Positions 1 to 6,948 of a stretch of 6,948 nucleotides of DNA are shown one piece after another. Source of the stretch: an uncultured Ruminococcus sp. (GTDB lineage Bacteria; Bacillota; Clostridia; Oscillospirales; Ruminococcaceae). Position 1 is the first letter of the stretch, and each line of letters begins with the position of its first letter. Made by a program: the position numbers and the translations under genes. The stretch covers positions 1 through 6,948 of the forward strand of contig CADBQZ010000226.1 in assembly GCA_902796865.1 (NCBI GenBank), written 5' to 3'. Below the pieces are notes generated by a model. The model was not told the DNA's origin, made no database searches, and was given only the letters and a program-made list of their open reading frames with translations.

Positions 1-1113
1 AAATTCCTTTACAGTCGTTTCATATATTCTGGGGTCGTTTCCGAAAACAGATATCGCTTCCTGCTGACCGTAATCGGTCTTGCAAACCCTCGGATATTCC
101 GGCCATGGGTTATTTTCAGAACGTGTATCAGGAAGCTTAGGCATCATCTCGAGCTGAACTATCGAAGCACATCCTTGTCTGATACAGCTTCCAACACAGT
201 CATTTCCGGTATCACCGCCGCCTATGACTACAACATTTTTATCTTTAGCTGAAATTATTTCCTTTTCTGTAAGATCGCCAAGCACACTCTTTGTAACGTT
301 TTTCAGAAAATCTACCGCAAAGTATATTCCGGAGGACTCTCTTCCCGGAGCTTTTATGTCTCTGGGGTTTGTACTGCCGCAGGCAAGTATAACAGCATCA
401 GAATCTGAAAGTATATCGTCTGCACTTATATCAGCTCCGACATCTGCATTCGTAACAAACTTTACCCCTTCCTTTTCCATAAGCTCGGCACGTCTGTCTA
501 TGATATGCTTTTCAAGCTTCATATTAGGTATACCATACATCAGAAGTCCGCCTATGCGGTCGGCACGTTCATATACCGTAACACTGTGACCTCTCTTATT
601 GAGCGTATCCGCAGCAGCAAGACCGGCAGGACCTGAACCTATTACTGCTATGCTTTTACCGCTCCTGTTTTTCGGCGGACACGGTTCCATAAGTCCGTTT
701 GCAAAGCCATGCTCTATTATAGCATTCTCATTTTCTCTTACAGTTACCGGGTCACCATAAATGCCGCAGGTACAGGCTTTTTCGCACAGTGCCGGACAAA
801 CACGAGAAGTAAATTCCGGAAAATTGTTTGTCATAAGAAGACGCTCTAAAGCCTGTTCCGGTCTGTCGTTATATAAAAGATCATTCCATTCGGGAATAAG
901 ATTATTTAATGGGCATCCCGAGATCATACCACCGAGCATTTTTCCGTTCTGACAAAACGGTACTCCGCAGTCCATACATCTTGCCGCCTGTTCTTTTCTT
1001 TCGTCAGCACTCAGCGGGATATGAAATTCATTGAAATTCTTTATTCTTTCAAGCTCATCTAAAGCTTTGCTGTCTTCCCTTATATATTCAAGAAATCCTG
1101 TAGGTTTTCCCAT
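1..1113 (-). CDS. gltD: Glutamate synthase (NADPH) small subunit, partial (C-terminus beyond left edge)
   Basis: This is the small (beta) subunit of glutamate synthase. It oxidises NADPH at FAD and passes electrons through iron-sulfur clusters to the FMN site of GltB, in the cytoplasm. The visible 371 codons begin MGKPTGFLEY. An N-terminal cysteine-rich domain has Cys46, Cys49, Cys54 and Cys67 (C-x2-C-x4-C, then GCP) and Cys106, Cys110 and Cys114 (CPALCEKAC), the usual ligand pattern of the two 4Fe-4S clusters. A GSGPAG dinucleotide-binding loop for FAD is at 159-164, MYGIPNMKLEK is at 192-202, and a second loop, GGGDTG at 298-303, is the likely NADPH site. Family members are about 480-490 residues, so roughly a quarter is missing at the window edge; there is no sign of a break. 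The ATG start is fixed by an AAGGAGG seven bases upstream. It sits two bases after the gltB stop, so the pair is almost certainly one transcript with coupled translation. A paralogous GltD-like oxidoreductase is less likely given this partner. Confidence 0.97.
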   Translation of the reverse strand, partial: MGKPTGFLEYIREDSKALDELERIKNFNEFHIPLSADERKEQAARCMDCGVPFCQNGKMLGGMISGCPLNNLIPEWNDLLYNDRPEQALERLLMTNNFPEFTSRVCPALCEKACTCGIYGDPVTVRENENAIIEHGFANGLMEPCPPKNRSGKSIAVIGSGPAGLAAADTLNKRGHSVTVYERADRIGGLLMYGIPNMKLEKHIIDRRAELMEKEGVKFVTNADVGADISADDILSDSDAVILACGSTNPRDIKAPGRESSGIYFAVDFLKNVTKSVLGDLTEKEIISAKDKNVVVIGGGDTGNDCVGSCIRQGCASIVQLEMMPKLPDTRSENNPWPEYPRVCKTDYGQQEAISVFGNDPRIYETTVKEF

Positions 1114-1115
1114 TT

Positions 1116-4100
1116 TTATGCCTCCTTGCGAAATTTATAAAATGCTTCTTCTTCTGCCTGTTCAGCTGTCATTCCCTTTTCTGTAAAGAGAGTCATAGCT
1201 GACTGCATCTTTGCATAATCATGAGGTATTATCTTTTTGAAAGAAGGGAGATACTGTTCAAAATTATCAAGTATCTTCTTAGCCTTCGATGAGCCTGTAG
1301 CTTCAAAATGTTCCTCTATAAGATGTCTTAATTCTTTTATATCATATTTATTTGAAAGGGGTTCAAGCGAAACAAGTGATCTGTTAAGCTTCATATAAAG
1401 ATCTCTGTCCTCATCAAGAACATATGCGATACCGCCCGACATTCCGGCTGCAAAGTTTTTACCTGTTTTGCCAAGTATTACGGCACGTCCGCCTGTCATA
1501 TATTCACATCCGTGATCGCCTACGCCCTCGCATACTGCATATGCGCCGGAATTTCTTACACAGAATCTTTCACCGGCAATGCCATTTATAAACGCCTTGC
1601 CCGATGTTGCACCATAAAGTGCTACATTTCCGACGATTATATTATCTTCTGCCTTGAATGCTGCATTCTTTTCAGGAGAAACTATAAGCTTTCCGCCCGA
1701 AAGACCCTTTCCGAAATAATCGTTGCTGTCACCGGTAAGCTTGAGCGTAAGGCCCTTTGGTATAAATGCACCAAAGCTCTGTCCGCCGCTTCCGTTGCAC
1801 TTTACAGTATACATATCATCATCAAGAGTATTCTCGCCCCATTGTCTCGTTATCTGCGCTCCGAAAAGCGTTCCGAGCGAGCGGTCAGTATTGCTTATCT
1901 TTATCTCTATTGTCTTAGGTGTTTTTGATTTAAGCGCTGCACCGAGCTTTTTCATTATAACTCTTTCGTCTACAGTCTTTTCAAGCTCAAAATCATATAC
2001 ATCATCGCTGCAGAAATGCTGTCCCTTATCTGCTGTGTCACGGCAAAGTATCTTTGAAAAGTCTATGTTTTTGCTGTTATCTCTTACCTTCAGAAGATCG
2101 GTGCGTCCGATAAGCTCATCAACGGTCCTGACACCGAGCTTTGCCATATATCCACGAAGCTCTTCGGCTACAAATCTCATAAAGTTTATGATATATTCAG
2201 GTTTTCCTCTGAATCTCTTGCGAAGCTCCGGATTCTGTGTTGCAATACCCATAGGACAGGTATCAAGATTGCAGACTCTCATCATCACGCATCCCATAGT
2301 TACAAGCGGTGCTGTAGCAAATCCATATTCCTCAGCTCCTAAAAGTGCAGCTACAAGAACATCACGGCCTGTCATGAGCTTTCCGTCAGTCTCTATAACC
2401 ACTCTTGAACGAAGGCCATTAAGAATAAGCGACTGGTGTGCCTCTGCAACACCAAGTTCCCACGGAAGACCTGCATTATATATAGAGCTTCCCGGTGCGG
2501 CACCTGTACCGCCGTCATATCCTGAGATAAGTATTACCTGTGCGCCGGCTTTTGCAACACCTGCTGCAACAGTTCCAACACCCGCTTCTGATACAAGCTT
2601 TACAGATATTCTTGAACGGTCATTCGCATTTTTAAGATCGTAAATAAGCTGTGCAAGATCTTCGATCGAGTAAATATCATGATGCGGCGGAGGTGATATG
2701 AGTGCTACTCCTGCCGTTGAATGACGTGTTTTAGCTATCCACGGATACACTTTTCCAGCCGGCAGATGTCCGCCTTCACCGGGCTTTGCACCCTGTGCCA
2801 TTTTTATTTGTATCTCTTTTGCAGATACAAGATATTCTGACGTAACACCAAATCTTCCCGAAGCTACCTGCTTTATAGCCGAACAACTGTCAGAATTTAA
2901 TCTTTCAGGTTCTTCTCCGCCTTCACCGGAGTTTGAACGTCCGCCTATTTTGTTCATAGCCTTCGCCATACATTCATGTGCTTCCTTTGAGATAGAGCCG
3001 TATGACATAGCGCCTGTCTTAAAGCGTTTGCAGATGCTTTCAACGCTCTCTACCTCATCAAGAGGTATTCCGCCTGTCTTATCAAATTCAAAATCCAGCA
3101 TACTGCGGAGAGTCATTGATCTGTCCTCTCTGTTTATGCTTTCAGAATATTTTTTATATACCTCATAATCTCCTGTCTGTGCTGCTCTCTGAAGAAGATG
3201 TATAGTTTCAGGAGTATAAAGATGCTCTTTTCTGCCGCTTCTGAGTTTATGTGAACCGGCACTTTCTATACCGCTCACTGTTCCAAGTCCCAGAGGATCA
3301 AATGCAAGATCATGAAGCTTTTCCGTTCTCCTGCTTATCTCAGCAAGTCCGATACCGCCGATACGGCTTACTGTACCGCTGAAATATTTATCTATGAGTT
3401 CCTGTGATATGCCAACAGCTTCAAAGAGCTTTGAACCCTGATATGAACGTATCGTAGAAATACCCATTTTTGAAGCTATCTTTACAATACCATGAAGTAC
3501 AGCACTGTTATAATCATCTTCTGCTGCATAGAAGTCTTTATCCAGCATTCCTGTATCTATAAGATCTCTTATCGTTTCCTGTGCAAGATATGGGTTTACG
3601 GCGCAGGCTCCGTATCCCAAAAGCGCCGCAAAATCATGTACCTCTCTAGGCTCTGCACTTTCAAGTATCATAGCAACAGCCGTACGCTTTTTTGTTGATA
3701 CAAGATGCTGCTGCAAAGCTGCTACAGCAAGGAGCGATGGGATAGCCGCTCTGTATTCATCAACATCTCTGTCAGAAAGGATAAGTATATTTGCACCCTC
3801 TCTGTATGCCTTGTCAGCATCAATGAATAAACGCTCAAGCGCTCTTTCAAGAGAAGTTCCAACATAATATGTTATCGGTATAACAGCTGTCTTCAATCCC
3901 TTGATATTCATGCTCTTGATCTTTAGCATATCTGTACTTGTAAGTATCGGGTTTTCTACTTTAAGTACGTGACAGTTCTCAGGCTTTTCCTCTAATATAT
4001 TTCCGTCCTCGCCTATATATGTAGAAGTGTCTGTTACTATCTCCTCTCTTATTGCATCAAACGGTGGATTTGTTACTTGTGCAAAAAGCTGTCTGAAATA

Positions 4101-5645
4101 TGAGAACAGCGGCGGTGCGCTTTCATCAAGCGGCGGCAAAGGTATATCAGAACCCATTGATGCTATTGGCTCTGCACCGTTTTTCGCCATAGGAAGAATG
4201 CTGTTCTTTATATTCTCATAGCTGTACCCGAACGCTTTCTGAAGCTTCTGAAGTTCCTCATGCGAATATGTCTTTACTCCCTTGTTCGGGATATGAAGAT
4301 CATGAAGTCTTACAAGATTACTGTCGAGCCATTCTCCGTAAGGCTGTCTTGAAGCATATATGCTCTTTATCTCATTATCGTCGATAAGTCTTCCCTGCTT
4401 TGTATCTGCAAGCAGCATCTTGCCCGGTCTTAATCTGTCTTTTTTGATTATCTTGTCAGCCGGGATATCTATACAGCCTGTTTCTGATGCAAGTACAAGA
4501 AATCCGTCATTTGTAACACAGTATCTTGAAGGACGAAGACCGTTTCTGTCAAGAACTGCTCCCATTATATCACCGTCAGAGAAAAGTATTGAAGCAGGTC
4601 CGTCCCACGGTTCCATCATAGTTGCATAGTACTGATACAGATCATACTTTTCCTTTGAGATACTGCGGTCATTCTTCCATGGTTCAGGGATAGTGACCAT
4701 AACTGCAAGCGGCAAAGGCATTCCTGACATTACCATAAATTCAAGAGCATTATCAAGCCTTGCCGAGTCTGAACCATTTATATCTATCGCCGGAAGTATA
4801 TCGTACATATCTTCCTTCAATGCTTCACAGTGCATAGATTCCTCTCGTGCAAGCATCTTATCTGCATTTCCGGTGATAGTATTGATCTCTCCGTTGTGTA
4901 CAATGAATCTGTTCGGGTGAGCCTTCTGCCAGCTTGGATTTGTATTTGTAGAGAATCTGCTGTGTACCATAGCTATTGCAGATGTAAAGCTCTTGTCCTG
5001 AAGGTCGGGATAGAACTTTCTTAATTCGTCTACAAGGAACATACCTTTATATACAACAGTACGGCTTGAAAGAGAACATACATATGTATTCTCGTCCGAC
5101 TGTTCAAATATACGTCTTGCAGTATAAAGCTTTCTGTCAAATTCAAGTCCTCTCTGCAAGCCTTCCGGACGCTTCACAAAGCCCTGCATTATATAAGGCA
5201 TACTGCTTTTCGCCTTATGTCCTAAAATATCCGGAACAGAAGGCACATCACGCCAGCCTAAAAATTCAAGACCTCTTTTTCTTAATATTACCTCGAACAT
5301 TTTTTTTGCCTGATTACGCTTCAATTCACTCTGTGGGAAAAAGAACATTCCAACCCCGAAATCCCCTCTTTCGCCAATGTCAAAACCGCACTTCAGGCAC
5401 TGACTCCTGAAGAAGACCTCCGGGATCTGTAATAGTATACCAACTCCGTCGCCCGTTTTTCCTTCAGCATCCTTACCTGCACGATGTTCAAGCTTTTCTA
5501 CTATTGTTAAAGCGTCGTCTATTACTTTTCTCGAAGCTTCTCCTCTTATATTTACCACAGCTCCTATGCCGCAGTTATCATGTTCAAACCGTGGGTCATA
5601 AAGTCCCTGTGCTTTGAACGGAGTACTTTCTCTGAAATTATCCAT
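1116..5645 (-). CDS. gltB: Glutamate synthase (NADPH) large subunit
   Basis: This is the large (alpha) subunit of GOGAT: glutamine + 2-oxoglutarate + 2 e- gives two glutamates. From the chosen ATG it has 1509 residues, the normal family length. The order is class II glutamine amidotransferase, central domain, FMN/2-oxoglutarate synthase domain and C-terminal GXGXG beta-helix. Cys25 (DNCGIG) is the expected N-terminal nucleophile after removal of a 24-residue propeptide. HSRFSTNT at 228-235 and HNGEIN at 250-255 are amidotransferase motifs. In the synthase domain, GGRSNSGEGGEE begins at 901, KPGEGGHLPAGK at 954 and SGYDGGTGAAP at 1041. Cys1119, Cys1125 and Cys1130 (C-x5-C-x4-C) are the 3Fe-4S ligands. 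GDHGCEYMTGG begins at 1376 in the GXGXG domain. No key residue looks lost. An upstream in-frame GTG at 5657 would add four residues (MTDS), but it leaves only one base after the AGAAAGG ribosome binding site, so ATG at 5645 is preferred. The gene is followed at once by gltD and preceded by a promoter and an attenuator-like leader. Confidence 0.98.
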   Translation of the reverse strand: MDNFRESTPFKAQGLYDPRFEHDNCGIGAVVNIRGEASRKVIDDALTIVEKLEHRAGKDAEGKTGDGVGILLQIPEVFFRSQCLKCGFDIGERGDFGVGMFFFPQSELKRNQAKKMFEVILRKRGLEFLGWRDVPSVPDILGHKAKSSMPYIMQGFVKRPEGLQRGLEFDRKLYTARRIFEQSDENTYVCSLSSRTVVYKGMFLVDELRKFYPDLQDKSFTSAIAMVHSRFSTNTNPSWQKAHPNRFIVHNGEINTITGNADKMLAREESMHCEALKEDMYDILPAIDINGSDSARLDNALEFMVMSGMPLPLAVMVTIPEPWKNDRSISKEKYDLYQYYATMMEPWDGPASILFSDGDIMGAVLDRNGLRPSRYCVTNDGFLVLASETGCIDIPADKIIKKDRLRPGKMLLADTKQGRLIDDNEIKSIYASRQPYGEWLDSNLVRLHDLHIPNKGVKTYSHEELQKLQKAFGYSYENIKNSILPMAKNGAEPIASMGSDIPLPPLDESAPPLFSYFRQLFAQVTNPPFDAIREEIVTDTSTYIGEDGNILEEKPENCHVLKVENPILTSTDMLKIKSMNIKGLKTAVIPITYYVGTSLERALERLFIDADKAYREGANILILSDRDVDEYRAAIPSLLAVAALQQHLVSTKKRTAVAMILESAEPREVHDFAALLGYGACAVNPYLAQETIRDLIDTGMLDKDFYAAEDDYNSAVLHGIVKIASKMGISTIRSYQGSKLFEAVGISQELIDKYFSGTVSRIGGIGLAEISRRTEKLHDLAFDPLGLGTVSGIESAGSHKLRSGRKEHLYTPETIHLLQRAAQTGDYEVYKKYSESINREDRSMTLRSMLDFEFDKTGGIPLDEVESVESICKRFKTGAMSYGSISKEAHECMAKAMNKIGGRSNSGEGGEEPERLNSDSCSAIKQVASGRFGVTSEYLVSAKEIQIKMAQGAKPGEGGHLPAGKVYPWIAKTRHSTAGVALISPPPHHDIYSIEDLAQLIYDLKNANDRSRISVKLVSEAGVGTVAAGVAKAGAQVILISGYDGGTGAAPGSSIYNAGLPWELGVAEAHQSLILNGLRSRVVIETDGKLMTGRDVLVAALLGAEEYGFATAPLVTMGCVMMRVCNLDTCPMGIATQNPELRKRFRGKPEYIINFMRFVAEELRGYMAKLGVRTVDELIGRTDLLKVRDNSKNIDFSKILCRDTADKGQHFCSDDVYDFELEKTVDERVIMKKLGAALKSKTPKTIEIKISNTDRSLGTLFGAQITRQWGENTLDDDMYTVKCNGSGGQSFGAFIPKGLTLKLTGDSNDYFGKGLSGGKLIVSPEKNAAFKAEDNIIVGNVALYGATSGKAFINGIAGERFCVRNSGAYAVCEGVGDHGCEYMTGGRAVILGKTGKNFAAGMSGGIAYVLDEDRDLYMKLNRSLVSLEPLSNKYDIKELRHLIEEHFEATGSSKAKKILDNFEQYLPSFKKIIPHDYAKMQSAMTLFTEKGMTAEQAEEEAFYKFRKEA
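1121..1127 (-). promoter_or_regulatory. gltD ribosome binding site embedded in the end of gltB
   Basis: AAGGAGG, a near-perfect Shine-Dalgarno, is formed by the last Lys-Glu-Ala codons of gltB (AAG GAG GCA TAA) and lies seven bases before the gltD ATG. Ribosomes finishing gltB would therefore cover the gltD start region, which supports coupled, near-stoichiometric production of the two subunits. Confidence 0.9.
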
Positions 5646-5658
5646 TGAATCTGTCACG

Positions 5659-5698: not shown

Positions 5699-5744
5699 AA
5701 AAAGACGCTCTTTATGGCACACCTCTGCCATAAAAAACGTCTTT
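5699..5744 (-). terminator. Attenuator-like intrinsic terminator in the gltB leader
   Basis: Read on the minus strand, AAAGACG (5744-5738) pairs with CGTCTTT (5707-5701), TTT (5737-5735) pairs with GAG (5710-5708) through U-G, U-A and U-G, and TTTATGGCA (5734-5726) pairs with TGCCATAAA (5719-5711). This gives a 19-bp stem around the six-base loop GAGGTG, followed by a run of T ending at 5699. It starts within a few bases of the predicted gltB transcript start and lies wholly upstream of gltB, so it should act as a leader terminator for gltBD. The U-run is short (five T, the first three of them in the stem), so efficiency is uncertain. Confidence 0.68.
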
Positions 5745-5749
5745 GTTCT
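5711..5749 (-). promoter_or_regulatory. Candidate ANTAR-type two-hairpin antiterminator in the gltB leader
   Basis: The first hairpin (P1) is AGAAC (5749-5745), loop AAAGAC (5744-5739), GUUUU (5738-5734). Its six-base loop has A at position 1 and G at position 4, the signature of ANTAR-domain protein targets. It would bury the AAAGACG strand that the terminator needs. The second hairpin (P2) is AUGGCA, loop GAGGUG, UGCCAU, and forms the top of the terminator stem. Its loop keeps G at position 4 but has G instead of A at position 1. P1 and the full terminator cannot form together. The structure is drawn by eye and the ANTAR assignment is inferred. Confidence 0.5.
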
Positions 5750-5755
5750 ATAACA

Positions 5756-5784
5756 ATAATATCACATTAAAGTGGAAAAGTCAA
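5756..5784 (-). promoter_or_regulatory. Sigma-A type promoter for gltBD
   Basis: On the minus strand, TTGACT (5784-5779) and TATTAT (5761-5756) are separated by exactly 17 bp; each hexamer differs from consensus at one base. Transcription would start near 5749-5751, giving a leader of about 100 bases before the gltB ATG, just enough for the hairpins at 5699-5749 and the ribosome binding site. Confidence 0.82.
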
Positions 5785-5883: not shown

Positions 5884-5912
5884 TTGACATTTTTTTCACT
5901 ATGTTATATAAT
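5884..5912 (+). promoter_or_regulatory. Consensus sigma-A promoter for amt
   Basis: TTGACA (5884-5889) and TATAAT (5907-5912) are both perfect consensus hexamers separated by 17 bp, with A/T tracts just upstream. Transcription should begin near 5919, leaving a leader of about 190 bases before the amt ATG. A promoter this strong, on a gene that should be silent when ammonium is plentiful, suggests that control is exerted in the leader. Confidence 0.9.
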
Positions 5913-5923
5913 TAAAGCACAAA

Positions 5924-5954
5924 CAGCAAAGGGGCTGCGGATCAATGACGATTT
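5924..5954 (+). promoter_or_regulatory. Candidate ANTAR two-hexaloop antiterminator, amt leader element 1
   Basis: P1 is CAGC (5924-5927), loop AAAGGG (5928-5933), GCUG (5934-5937). P2 is GGAUC (5939-5943), loop AAUGAC (5944-5949), GAUUU (5950-5954, with two G-U pairs). Both loops are six bases with A at position 1 and G at position 4, which is the known recognition signature of ANTAR-domain RNA-binding antiterminators. One base separates the hairpins. The 3' strand of P1 is also the 5' basal strand of terminator 1, so a protein that stabilises P1-P2 would prevent termination. The element starts only a few bases after the predicted transcript start. Confidence 0.65.
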
Positions 5955-5972
5955 GCAGCCTTTTTATTTTTT
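5933..5972 (+). terminator. Intrinsic terminator 1 in the amt leader
   Basis: GGCTGCGGATC (5933-5943) pairs with GATTTGCAGCC (5950-5960) as an 11-bp stem with two G-U pairs and the six-base loop AATGAC, followed by TTTTT-A-TTTTTT (5961-5972). G-U pairs may extend the base by two. This is a textbook Rho-independent terminator lying inside the leader of amt, about 140 bases before its start codon, so it is best read as an attenuator. Confidence 0.82.
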
Positions 5973-5996: not shown

Positions 5997-6010
5997 GCAA
6001 GCGCTTGAAT

Positions 6011-6050
6011 TATACACAACGGGGTGTATAGTACTTGAAACAAAAGTACT
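6011..6050 (+). promoter_or_regulatory. Candidate ANTAR-type antiterminator, amt leader element 2
   Basis: P1 is a perfect 7-bp hairpin, UAUACAC (6011-6017), loop AACGGG (6018-6023), GUGUAUA (6024-6030), again a six-base loop with A1 and G4. A second hairpin, AGUACUU (6030-6036) with AAGUACU (6044-6050), follows directly, but its loop GAAACAA has seven bases and lacks the A1/G4 pattern. The two hairpins share base 6030, so one end pair must open. The GGGG and GUGUAUA segments of P1 are needed for the base of terminator 2, so the two folds exclude each other. The arrangement matches element 1 and the gltB leader. Confidence 0.55.
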
Positions 6051-6065
6051 GTACGCCCCATTTTT
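6021..6065 (+). terminator. Intrinsic terminator 2 in the amt leader
   Basis: Bases 6021-6036 pair with 6044-6059 as an unbroken 16-bp stem (GGGG with CCCC at the base, two U-G pairs, GTACTT with AAGTAC at the top) around the loop GAAACAA. It is followed by A and five T (6060-6065). It lies about 45 bases before the amt ATG. Together with terminator 1, it means polymerase must pass two stop signals in series before reaching amt. Confidence 0.75.
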
Positions 6066-6109: not shown

Positions 6110-6948
6110 ATGGACGCTCAAGCACTTTTTAAAGAAGCGGTCGACAGTGCGAACAGCACAGTATTTCAGGTATGGTTCCTGATAGGCGCAGCTTTAGTAT
6201 TCTTTATGCAGGCAGGATTTGCAATGGTAGAAACGGGATTTACCCGTGCAAAAAATGCCGGCAATATTATAATGAAAAATCTTATGGATTTCTGCATCGG
6301 TACACCGATGTTTGTACTTATAGGATTCGGACTTCTTTTCGGAGAAGACATGGCCGGTATCATCGGCAAACCCGGATTCGACATCTTCACAGCATATGAC
6401 AGCTTTGAATGGTCGAACTTCGTATTCAACCTTGTATTCTGTGCAACTACCGCAACGATCGTTTCGGGAGCTATGGCAGAACGTACTAAATTCTCATCAT
6501 ACTGTGTTTATTCAGCCGTTATAAGCGGCGTTATCTACCCCATCGAAGCACACTGGGGCTGGGGCGGCGGCTGGCTCGCCCAGTGGGGATTCCACGATTT
6601 TGCAGGTTCATGTCACATTCATATGGTAGGCGGTATCGCTGCACTGATAGGTGCTGCTGTTTTAGGTCCTCGTATCGGTAAATTCACAAGAAAGAAAGAC
6701 GGAAACATTCAGGTAAACGCTATTCCTGGTCACAATATCCCGATTGGCGCACTCGGATGCTTCATTCTCTGGTTCGGTTGGTACGGATTTAACGGTGCTG
6801 CCTGCACAGCAGGAGATCAGCTAGGTTCAGTATTCCTTACAACAACTATCGCACCGGCAGTTGCAACTGTTGTCTGCATGGTATTCACATGGATAAAATA
6901 CGGTAAGCCCGATGTTTCAATGTGTCTTAACGCTTCACTTGCAGGTCT
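6110..6948 (+). CDS. amt: Ammonium transporter, Amt family, partial (C-terminus beyond right edge)
   Basis: This is a membrane channel/transporter for ammonium (Amt/MEP/Rh family), a trimer in the plasma membrane. The 279 full codons cover roughly the first seven of the usual eleven helices. The N-terminus is short (MDAQALFKEAV) and the first helix begins near residue 20, without the signal peptide seen in E. coli AmtB, as is usual for other bacterial Amts. By ungapped comparison with AmtB from memory, Phe106 and Phe110 fit the Phe gate (F103/F107), Trp151 in the HWGWGGG stretch fits W148, Asp163 fits D160 and His171 fits the first pore histidine, H168. Residues 163-188, beginning DFAGSCHIH, match the family signature. 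The second pore histidine lies beyond the window. Ala231 in GFNGAA stands where AmtB has Ser219. Missing are the remaining helices and the cytoplasmic tail; a downstream glnK or a fused PII domain is possible but not visible. Confidence 0.97.
   Translation, partial: MDAQALFKEAVDSANSTVFQVWFLIGAALVFFMQAGFAMVETGFTRAKNAGNIIMKNLMDFCIGTPMFVLIGFGLLFGEDMAGIIGKPGFDIFTAYDSFEWSNFVFNLVFCATTATIVSGAMAERTKFSSYCVYSAVISGVIYPIEAHWGWGGGWLAQWGFHDFAGSCHIHMVGGIAALIGAAVLGPRIGKFTRKKDGNIQVNAIPGHNIPIGALGCFILWFGWYGFNGAACTAGDQLGSVFLTTTIAPAVATVVCMVFTWIKYGKPDVSMCLNASLAG

Follow-up and report, generated by a model that had tools for sequence, protein, structure and literature searches.

The window, by which we mean the whole 6,948-nt stretch of DNA analysed here, is contig C226 of a draft genome (1.77 Mb in 276 contigs, 89% complete) of an uncultured Ruminococcus sp. 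It carries an ammonium transporter gene, amt, that diverges from gltB, the first gene of a glutamate synthase operon. The best named matches of the amt product are labelled Ruminococcus or Oscillospiraceae. The genes and leader features are as follows.

5884-5889, forward strand: -35 box TTGACA of the predicted amt promoter (spacer 17; sequence and promoter test)
5907-5912, forward strand: -10 box TATAAT of the same promoter (sequence)
5924-5937, forward strand: H1, hexaloop hairpin CAGC-AAAGGG-GCTG, loop at 5928-5933 (sequence, fold, conservation and covariation)
5928-5972, forward strand: T1, predicted intrinsic terminator, stem 5928-5943/5950-5965, T-run 5961-5972 with one A inside (fold)
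5944-5949, forward strand: AATGAC hexaloop, the apical loop of T1 (most relatives are without it)
6011-6030, forward strand: H2, hexaloop hairpin TATACAC-AACGGG-GTGTATA, loop at 6018-6023 (sequence, unit scan)
6021-6065, forward strand: T2, second predicted intrinsic terminator, stem 6021-6036/6044-6059, T-run of five at 6061-6065 (fold)
6110-6948, forward strand: amt, ammonium transporter, running off the window (PF00909, E 2.2e-78)
5756-5784, reverse strand: predicted gltB promoter, -35 TTGACT at 5784-5779, -10 TATTAT at 5761-5756, spacer 17 (sequence)
5734-5749, reverse strand: gltB-leader hexaloop hairpin AGAAC-AAAGAC-GTTTT, loop at 5744-5739 (by eye, then folding energies)
5699-5744, reverse strand: gltB-leader terminator with a five-T run (fold)
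1116-5657, reverse strand: gltB, glutamate synthase large subunit (ORF and Pfam)
1-1113, reverse strand: gltD, glutamate synthase small subunit, running off the window (ORF and Pfam)

The operon apparently continues beyond the window. One end of contig C173 is exactly identical to window nucleotides 1-87 and continues the gltD frame; past the junction it holds the rest of gltD, a glutamine-synthetase-like (GS-like) gene, a gene for an ANTAR protein, purF and asnB. Judging from this 87-nt join, the operon apparently reads gltB-gltD-GSlike-ANTAR-purF-asnB across the contig break.

Hairpins and terminators in the two leaders

Transcription of amt is predicted from the spacing of the promoter boxes to start at about 5919, some 5 nt before H1. 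The core arms of T1, GGCTGCGGATC and GATTTGCAGCC, lie at 5933-5943 and 5950-5960, and the fold adds basal pairs to give a 16-bp stem of -22.4 kcal/mol (z -6.47) that none of 200 shuffled sequences equals. The H1 loop carries A at position 1 and G at position 4 (A1/G4) over the 5’ base of this terminator, as in dual-hexaloop sites; the loops of H2 and of the gltB hairpin likewise have A1 and G4 above their terminators. A first-pass annotation of the region had described two hairpins, CAGC-AAAGGG-GCTG at 5924-5937 and GGATC-AATGAC-GATTT at 5939-5954 with a single C at 5938 between them, overlapping a terminator with a long T-run. All of these letters and coordinates are present in the sequence and the terminator fold is above chance; that reading overlooked the second unit of the amt leader at 6011-6065 and the unit in the gltB leader. 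Our own unit-finding script also missed the gltB hairpin, probably because the T-run there is only five long. A scan with Rfam 15 matched no model in the leaders, its sole match in the window lying elsewhere at E 2.7, far below the gathering score.

Folding indicates that each hairpin and its terminator are mutually exclusive. The free energy rises from -21.9 to -8.6 kcal/mol when H1 is enforced over T1, from -27.5 to -11.9 for H2 over T2, and from -26.8 to -11.5 for the gltB hairpin over its terminator. Forcing a hairpin to form is thus 13 to 16 kcal/mol dearer than leaving its terminator in place, and something would have to hold it. The H1 and AATGAC mini-hairpins alone fold at -7.7 kcal/mol, a weak signal equalled by 6 of 200 shuffles.

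Conservation of the promoter-proximal hexaloop

We compared the window with the best 80 of 587 confirmed amt loci in named genome records and with 26 loci of relatives, leaving out the window's own copy (L086), for a set of 107 leaders. We detected 135 terminators in 89 of them. The mini-hairpins over the terminator base have a six-base loop in 74 of the 135 cases, every other length from 3 to 10 occurring 2 to 26 times. Within these 74 hexaloops the bases are strongly constrained at positions 1, 2, 4 and 5 (A1 in 68, A2 in 68, G4 in 69, G5 in 62), as is the closing C-G pair (70), and position 3 is mixed (A 37, T 14, G 14, C 9). A1 and G4 occur jointly in 65 of the 74, from 55 leaders, so that the strict unit filter is passed by only 55 of the 107. 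Because it is position 3 and not A1 that varies, pairing with the T-run does not explain the conservation of A1.

A test free of this filter, starting from promoters, agrees. By the criteria we set, 59 of the 107 leaders have a strong promoter and the other 48 were not usable; with no stem filter, CAANGNNG lies 9-21 nt past the -10 box in 50 of the 59, compared with 362 of 11,800 shuffled sequences. Stem pairs 2, 3 and 4 are formed in 49, 50 and 39 of these 50 leaders. The covariation score over 33 distinct 14-mers is 0.580, compared with 0.281 (sd 0.036) in shuffles, none of 500 of which reaches it; kinship among sequences can also lift such a score above shuffles. In 29 of the 47 units with a promoter call, the distance from the -10 box to the start of the hairpin is 10-12 nt. 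The divergent gene follows the same pattern: we found ten gltB loci besides the window's own copy, and nine of the ten have the unit, one each, the exception being L062.

These patterns bear on two other accounts of the leaders. The terminators could be plain and constitutive, their bases resembling a hexaloop by chance, as might be expected where loop Gs pair with terminator Cs and A-tracts often precede terminators. Such a coincidence would have to accommodate the strong preference for length 6, the retention of A1 beside a variable position 3, the covariation of a 5’ arm that lies outside the terminator stem, and the near-fixed distance of the element from nitrogen-gene promoters, and we consider it very improbable. 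Alternatively, the AAxGG loop could be the Shine-Dalgarno sequence of a short leader ORF in a leader-peptide, ribosome-dependent attenuator. The loop bases are indeed AAGG-like and the window has an ATG at 5945, but a start codon follows 5-15 nt downstream in 26 of the 65 units where 28.5 would be expected, the loop varies at position 3, and the stem covaries. With no excess of start codons after the loop we rejected this idea, the least credible of those considered.

Among the nine strong-promoter leaders without CAANGNNG, four (L008, L009, L043 and L059) have, by eye, promoter-proximal hexaloops that begin with G (GAAGGC, GAGGGC, GAAGAC) in an otherwise equal layout, so A1 is not absolute. 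Another, L106, resembles by eye a variant with the G shifted. In the amt leader of L062 the first hairpin is accompanied by another A1/G4 loop (AAGGGC) with no T-run; as the 3’ arm of that stem looks, by eye, complementary to the ribosome-binding site, control there is perhaps translational.

One loop or two

The first-pass annotation had called the amt leader a canonical two-hexaloop site; an ANTAR dimer would then use AAAGGG and, a single base away, AAUGAC. Each loop is six bases long with A1 and G4, and the two can form together. The tip of T1 also recurs as an A1/G4 loop in L026 and L065. Six-base terminator tips carry A1 and G4 more often than expected (5 of 19, compared with 1.2; p 0.005), three of the five being in unit-bearing leaders (the window and the near-identical L026 and L065) and two in unit-less leaders; the tip of L018 is seemingly its hexaloop hairpin scored as a terminator. 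Against this, a second A1/G4 hexaloop lies inside just 5 of the 65 units, where the next base combinations, T/C and G/T, occupy 4 and 3, and the AATGAC loop is lost in close relatives (L003, L004, L006 and L016) that keep the first hairpin and its loop. The strict two-hexaloop site fails as a rule for the family: it occurs in 3 of 80 amt leaders (the best 80 of 587) and in 4 of 1,600 shuffles, which is above chance and too rare.

The published geometry points the same way. In the motif as described by Ramesh 2012 the hairpin at the 5’ base of the terminator is the second (P2) and its partner P1 lies upstream, which makes H1 the equivalent of P2. The linker between P1 and P2 is given there as 5-12 nt in the E. 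faecalis eut genes, with a 3-nt linker making induction drastically lower, and a range of 2-25 nt is given for ANTAR dual-hexaloop RNA in PMC8164766; the gap between H1 and the AATGAC hairpin is 1 nt, on the other side. Of the claimed pair, H1 holds up, conserved with covariation, and AATGAC, which is the tip of T1, does not. Loss of A1/G4 in close relatives, which that annotation named as grounds against its reading, is seen for the second loop and not for the first. The label of a canonical site is not supported, and there is no room for P1 between the predicted promoter and H1. We regard a canonical two-loop site in this leader as unlikely.

A partner further upstream was sought as well. 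In the window, no A1/G4 hexaloop was found within 40 nt upstream of either amt loop (the gltB hairpin lay outside this test). Among the 65 amt units one has such a loop at a linker of 3-14 nt (93 of 3,250 shuffled), and nine have it at 2-25 nt, where 2.9 are expected. Ahead of the second unit, three of the nine (L003, L004 and L006) show a hairpin that could be a P1 (loop AGCGCA or AGCGCT), and in these close relatives the equivalent of T2 may be a two-loop site. In four of the remaining six (L020, L041, L070 and L098) the hairpin lies, by position, on or upstream of the -10 box. In the 29 of 47 units whose hairpin begins 10-12 nt past that box, a few nucleotides beyond the expected start, an upstream partner would not be transcribed.

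The palindrome AAGCGCTT occupies window positions 5999-6006, between T1 and H2, and AGCGC is found at the equivalent place in L003 to L006 and in L016. This region can pair into an A1/G4 hexaloop on longer stems in L003, L004 and L006, whereas the window offers two pairs only. The palindrome could be what is left of a P1, or a DNA site.

It is also conceivable that H1 and H2 jointly make up one split two-loop site. The two types occur together in 12 of the 107 amt leaders, always with H1 first and in 11 cases at a spacing of 63-90 nt. Locus L016, from Ruminococcus flavefaciens, combines H1 and H2 with a gltB unit. By the strict filter, however, 45 of the 55 unit-bearing amt leaders have a single unit, as do the gltB leaders of nine relatives; T1 lies between the two loops; and a 20-nt extension of the linker is reported in Walshe 2022 to abolish EutV antitermination. 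We give this arrangement little credence. Since P1 lies upstream in the published motif and transcription is predicted to start only about 5 nt before H1, the amt leader looks, at the sequence level, like a single-hexaloop ANTAR antiterminator, present twice in tandem.

ANTAR proteins, their partners and the wider regulon

The general proposal of the first-pass annotation, that a nitrogen gene is switched by an ANTAR-type hexaloop and terminator, gains support. The genome, in which an absence of ANTAR proteins would have told against the proposal, encodes two (54.9 and 52.7 bits, above the cut-off; contigs C173 and C181). An ANTAR protein is present in 44 of 61 genomes and in 26 of the 27 that bear amt, the window's own included. 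Seven genomes have amt and an ANTAR gene on one contig, in six cases on opposite strands about 2-11 kb apart. An A1/G4 unit was sought in the leader of the second ANTAR gene in the window's genome and was not found there.

Both ANTAR genes of this genome follow a GS-like gene without catalytic residues, and a GS-like gene lies directly upstream in 26 of 30 ANTAR loci of relatives, one of the other four being cut by a contig end. We take D50’, E212, E327, R339, E357 and R359 to be the catalytic residues of an active type I glutamine synthetase and rely on this presumed numbering throughout. Mapped on the B. subtilis enzyme, the C173 GS-like protein has lost the equivalents of D50’, E327, R339, E357 and R359, and the C181 protein those of E212 and E327; across 28 GS-like proteins, nine retain the E327 equivalent and seven, all from the window's genus, have lost E212 (the flap alignment is approximate in each case). 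From their sequences the GS-like proteins look catalytically dead. The two GS-like genes of this genome and glnN, assigned to type III by eye, are its three GS-superfamily members.

The phospho-accepting Asp of the receiver is replaced by Asn in the C173 ANTAR protein and by Lys in the C181 ANTAR protein, and by eye it is retained in 2 of 32 aligned ANTAR proteins. The Response_reg model scores below its cut-off for the former and is absent for the latter. Unlike an EutV-type response regulator, then, these proteins have a receiver-like domain without a phosphorylatable Asp. By alignment, with the numbering offset inferred to be two, the EutV contact residues Lys149 and Glu160 named in Walshe 2022 are conserved; Tyr164 is replaced by His, the residue of AmiR, and Arg142 is not conserved.

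We think it probable that an ANTAR protein binds each lone loop (H1, H2 and that of the gltB leader) and keeps the terminators from forming, presumably under nitrogen limitation. In the absence of this protein, amt transcription would stop at T1 and T2, and transcription of the operon at the gltB terminator. The protein is apparently a product of the gltBD operon itself; by holding the single hexaloop hairpin it would prevent the terminator, the lone loop sufficing without the published P1. Two terminators in series may give tighter control of amt, and placing the regulator's operon under its own element would create feedback. Nitrogen limitation is suggested as the signal by analogy with NitR (PMC6316151) and with the GS-GlnR system (PMC9249791). 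Given a receiver-like domain with no phosphorylatable Asp, this signal may come from the neighbouring GS-like protein rather than from a kinase.

It is possible, however, that a lone loop binds without antiterminating, because EutV is described as needing both loops at the proper distance (Ramesh 2012, Walshe 2022). Walshe 2022 also reports that an EutV dimer binds one hexaloop, redefines a single loop of this kind as the minimal ANTAR target, and calls for further bioinformatic and experimental work on how far single loops are used. Such single-loop antitermination has natural candidates in the amt leader and its relatives, whose simple layout of promoter, hairpin and terminator can be tested in vitro.

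The amt leader shares with the EutV/EutW, NasR and AmiR sites described in Ramesh 2012 an A1/G4 hexaloop on a short hairpin over the 5’ base of a terminator, a place ahead of nitrogen genes and an ANTAR protein in the genome, and that paper already predicted ANTAR-type RNA matches ahead of ammonium transporters. It differs in having two successive one-loop terminators and no upstream partner hairpin; the terminator-proximal loop of eutP is placed at +53 in that account, and the first amt loop lies at about +10 of the predicted transcript. ANTAR proteins are likewise linked to ammonium-assimilation genes in the NitR/glnA cluster of Clostridium saccharobutylicum (PMC6316151) and, through Clo1313_2030, in the GS-GOGAT cluster of C. 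thermocellum (PMC4676874). What sets the present loci apart from those two, as these papers present them, are GS-like neighbours without catalytic residues and a target defined at the sequence level as a single hexaloop. A looser parallel is the control of GlnR and TnrA by feedback-inhibited glutamine synthetase (Travis 2022, PMC9249791), where a GS-fold protein encoded with the regulator would similarly relay nitrogen status; GlnR, by that account, binds DNA and works with a functional enzyme, whereas the putative partners here are an RNA-binding ANTAR protein and a seemingly dead GS-like protein. Among the titles and opening abstract lines of the open-access literature, a body that leaves most subscription journals outside, we recognised neither single-hexaloop amt leaders nor pairs of a GS pseudoenzyme with an ANTAR protein.

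To look for further members we trained a covariance model of promoter plus hairpin on amt leaders only and ran it over 37 genomes, scoring 150 of the 711 to 4461 first-look candidates in each. At E<=0.02 there are at least 30 matches. Eleven of the 30 precede amt (9 by ORF, 2 by position only) and nine precede glnN (3 Pfam-checked, 6 by eye). Single matches precede asnA, a glutamate-synthase amidotransferase gene, and genes for DUF1989, peptidase C26/GATase and PPDK_N proteins; the others are L257 (no Pfam match), L269, L271, L274 (without a terminator) and one at a contig end. The overlapping terminator was not detected in 8 of 28 assessed matches (L243, L244, L250, L253, L257, L269, L271 and L274). 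Two weaker matches, L275 and L276, also lie ahead of a gene for a glutamate-synthase protein. Matches at this threshold occur in 20 of 28 ANTAR-bearing genomes and in none of 9 ANTAR-less genomes (Fisher p 2e-4), a correlation confounded with the presence of amt; among amt-less genomes the split is 4 of 9 and 0 of 8 (Fisher p 0.08).

In the window's own genome amt alone is significant (E 1.8e-5); the next match, at 0.07, has a loop without G4 and no terminator. An A1/G4 unit was sought in its glnN leader and not found. That leader (L225) has a promoter-proximal hairpin, AAGAACG-CAGAAA-CGTTCTT, with no A1/G4 loop, and glnN leaders of other genera have the ANTAR-type unit.

It is tempting to speculate that Ruminococcus-like bacteria and their order place a whole nitrogen regulon under one-loop ANTAR antiterminators at the 5’ ends of transcripts, with a GS pseudoenzyme holding and releasing an unphosphorylated ANTAR protein in an RNA version of the GS-GlnR circuit. 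We put this forward tentatively, as a possibility that falls somewhat short of an expectation. Should the GS-like proteins prove to be the sensors, a dead enzyme would have been turned into a dedicated nitrogen sensor.

Within the genus, the pattern TATAMT-N(10-15)-RCAANGNNGY gave 86 matches in 11 genomes and its reversed form 93, so that the pattern alone is not enriched and was set aside as a detector. We tested 85 pattern matches for stem and terminator (the window's site was counted twice, and five amt leaders are not included). Eight distinct sites have a stem of at least three pairs and an overlapping terminator: two precede amt, two an Lrp-like regulator, two a circularly permuted ATP-grasp protein and one a glutamate-synthase amidotransferase, and the last sits at the end of a contig, pointing away from gltB. 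Pfam was run on one member per pair.

Two separate GS-like/ANTAR pairs (L083 1553-3418 and L084 5575-7467) reside in one genome with their catalytic residues differently degraded. Near both loci there are, by eye, secreted-cellulase-like genes (L083 1-1269 and L084 144-2420), one of them with a dockerin-like end.
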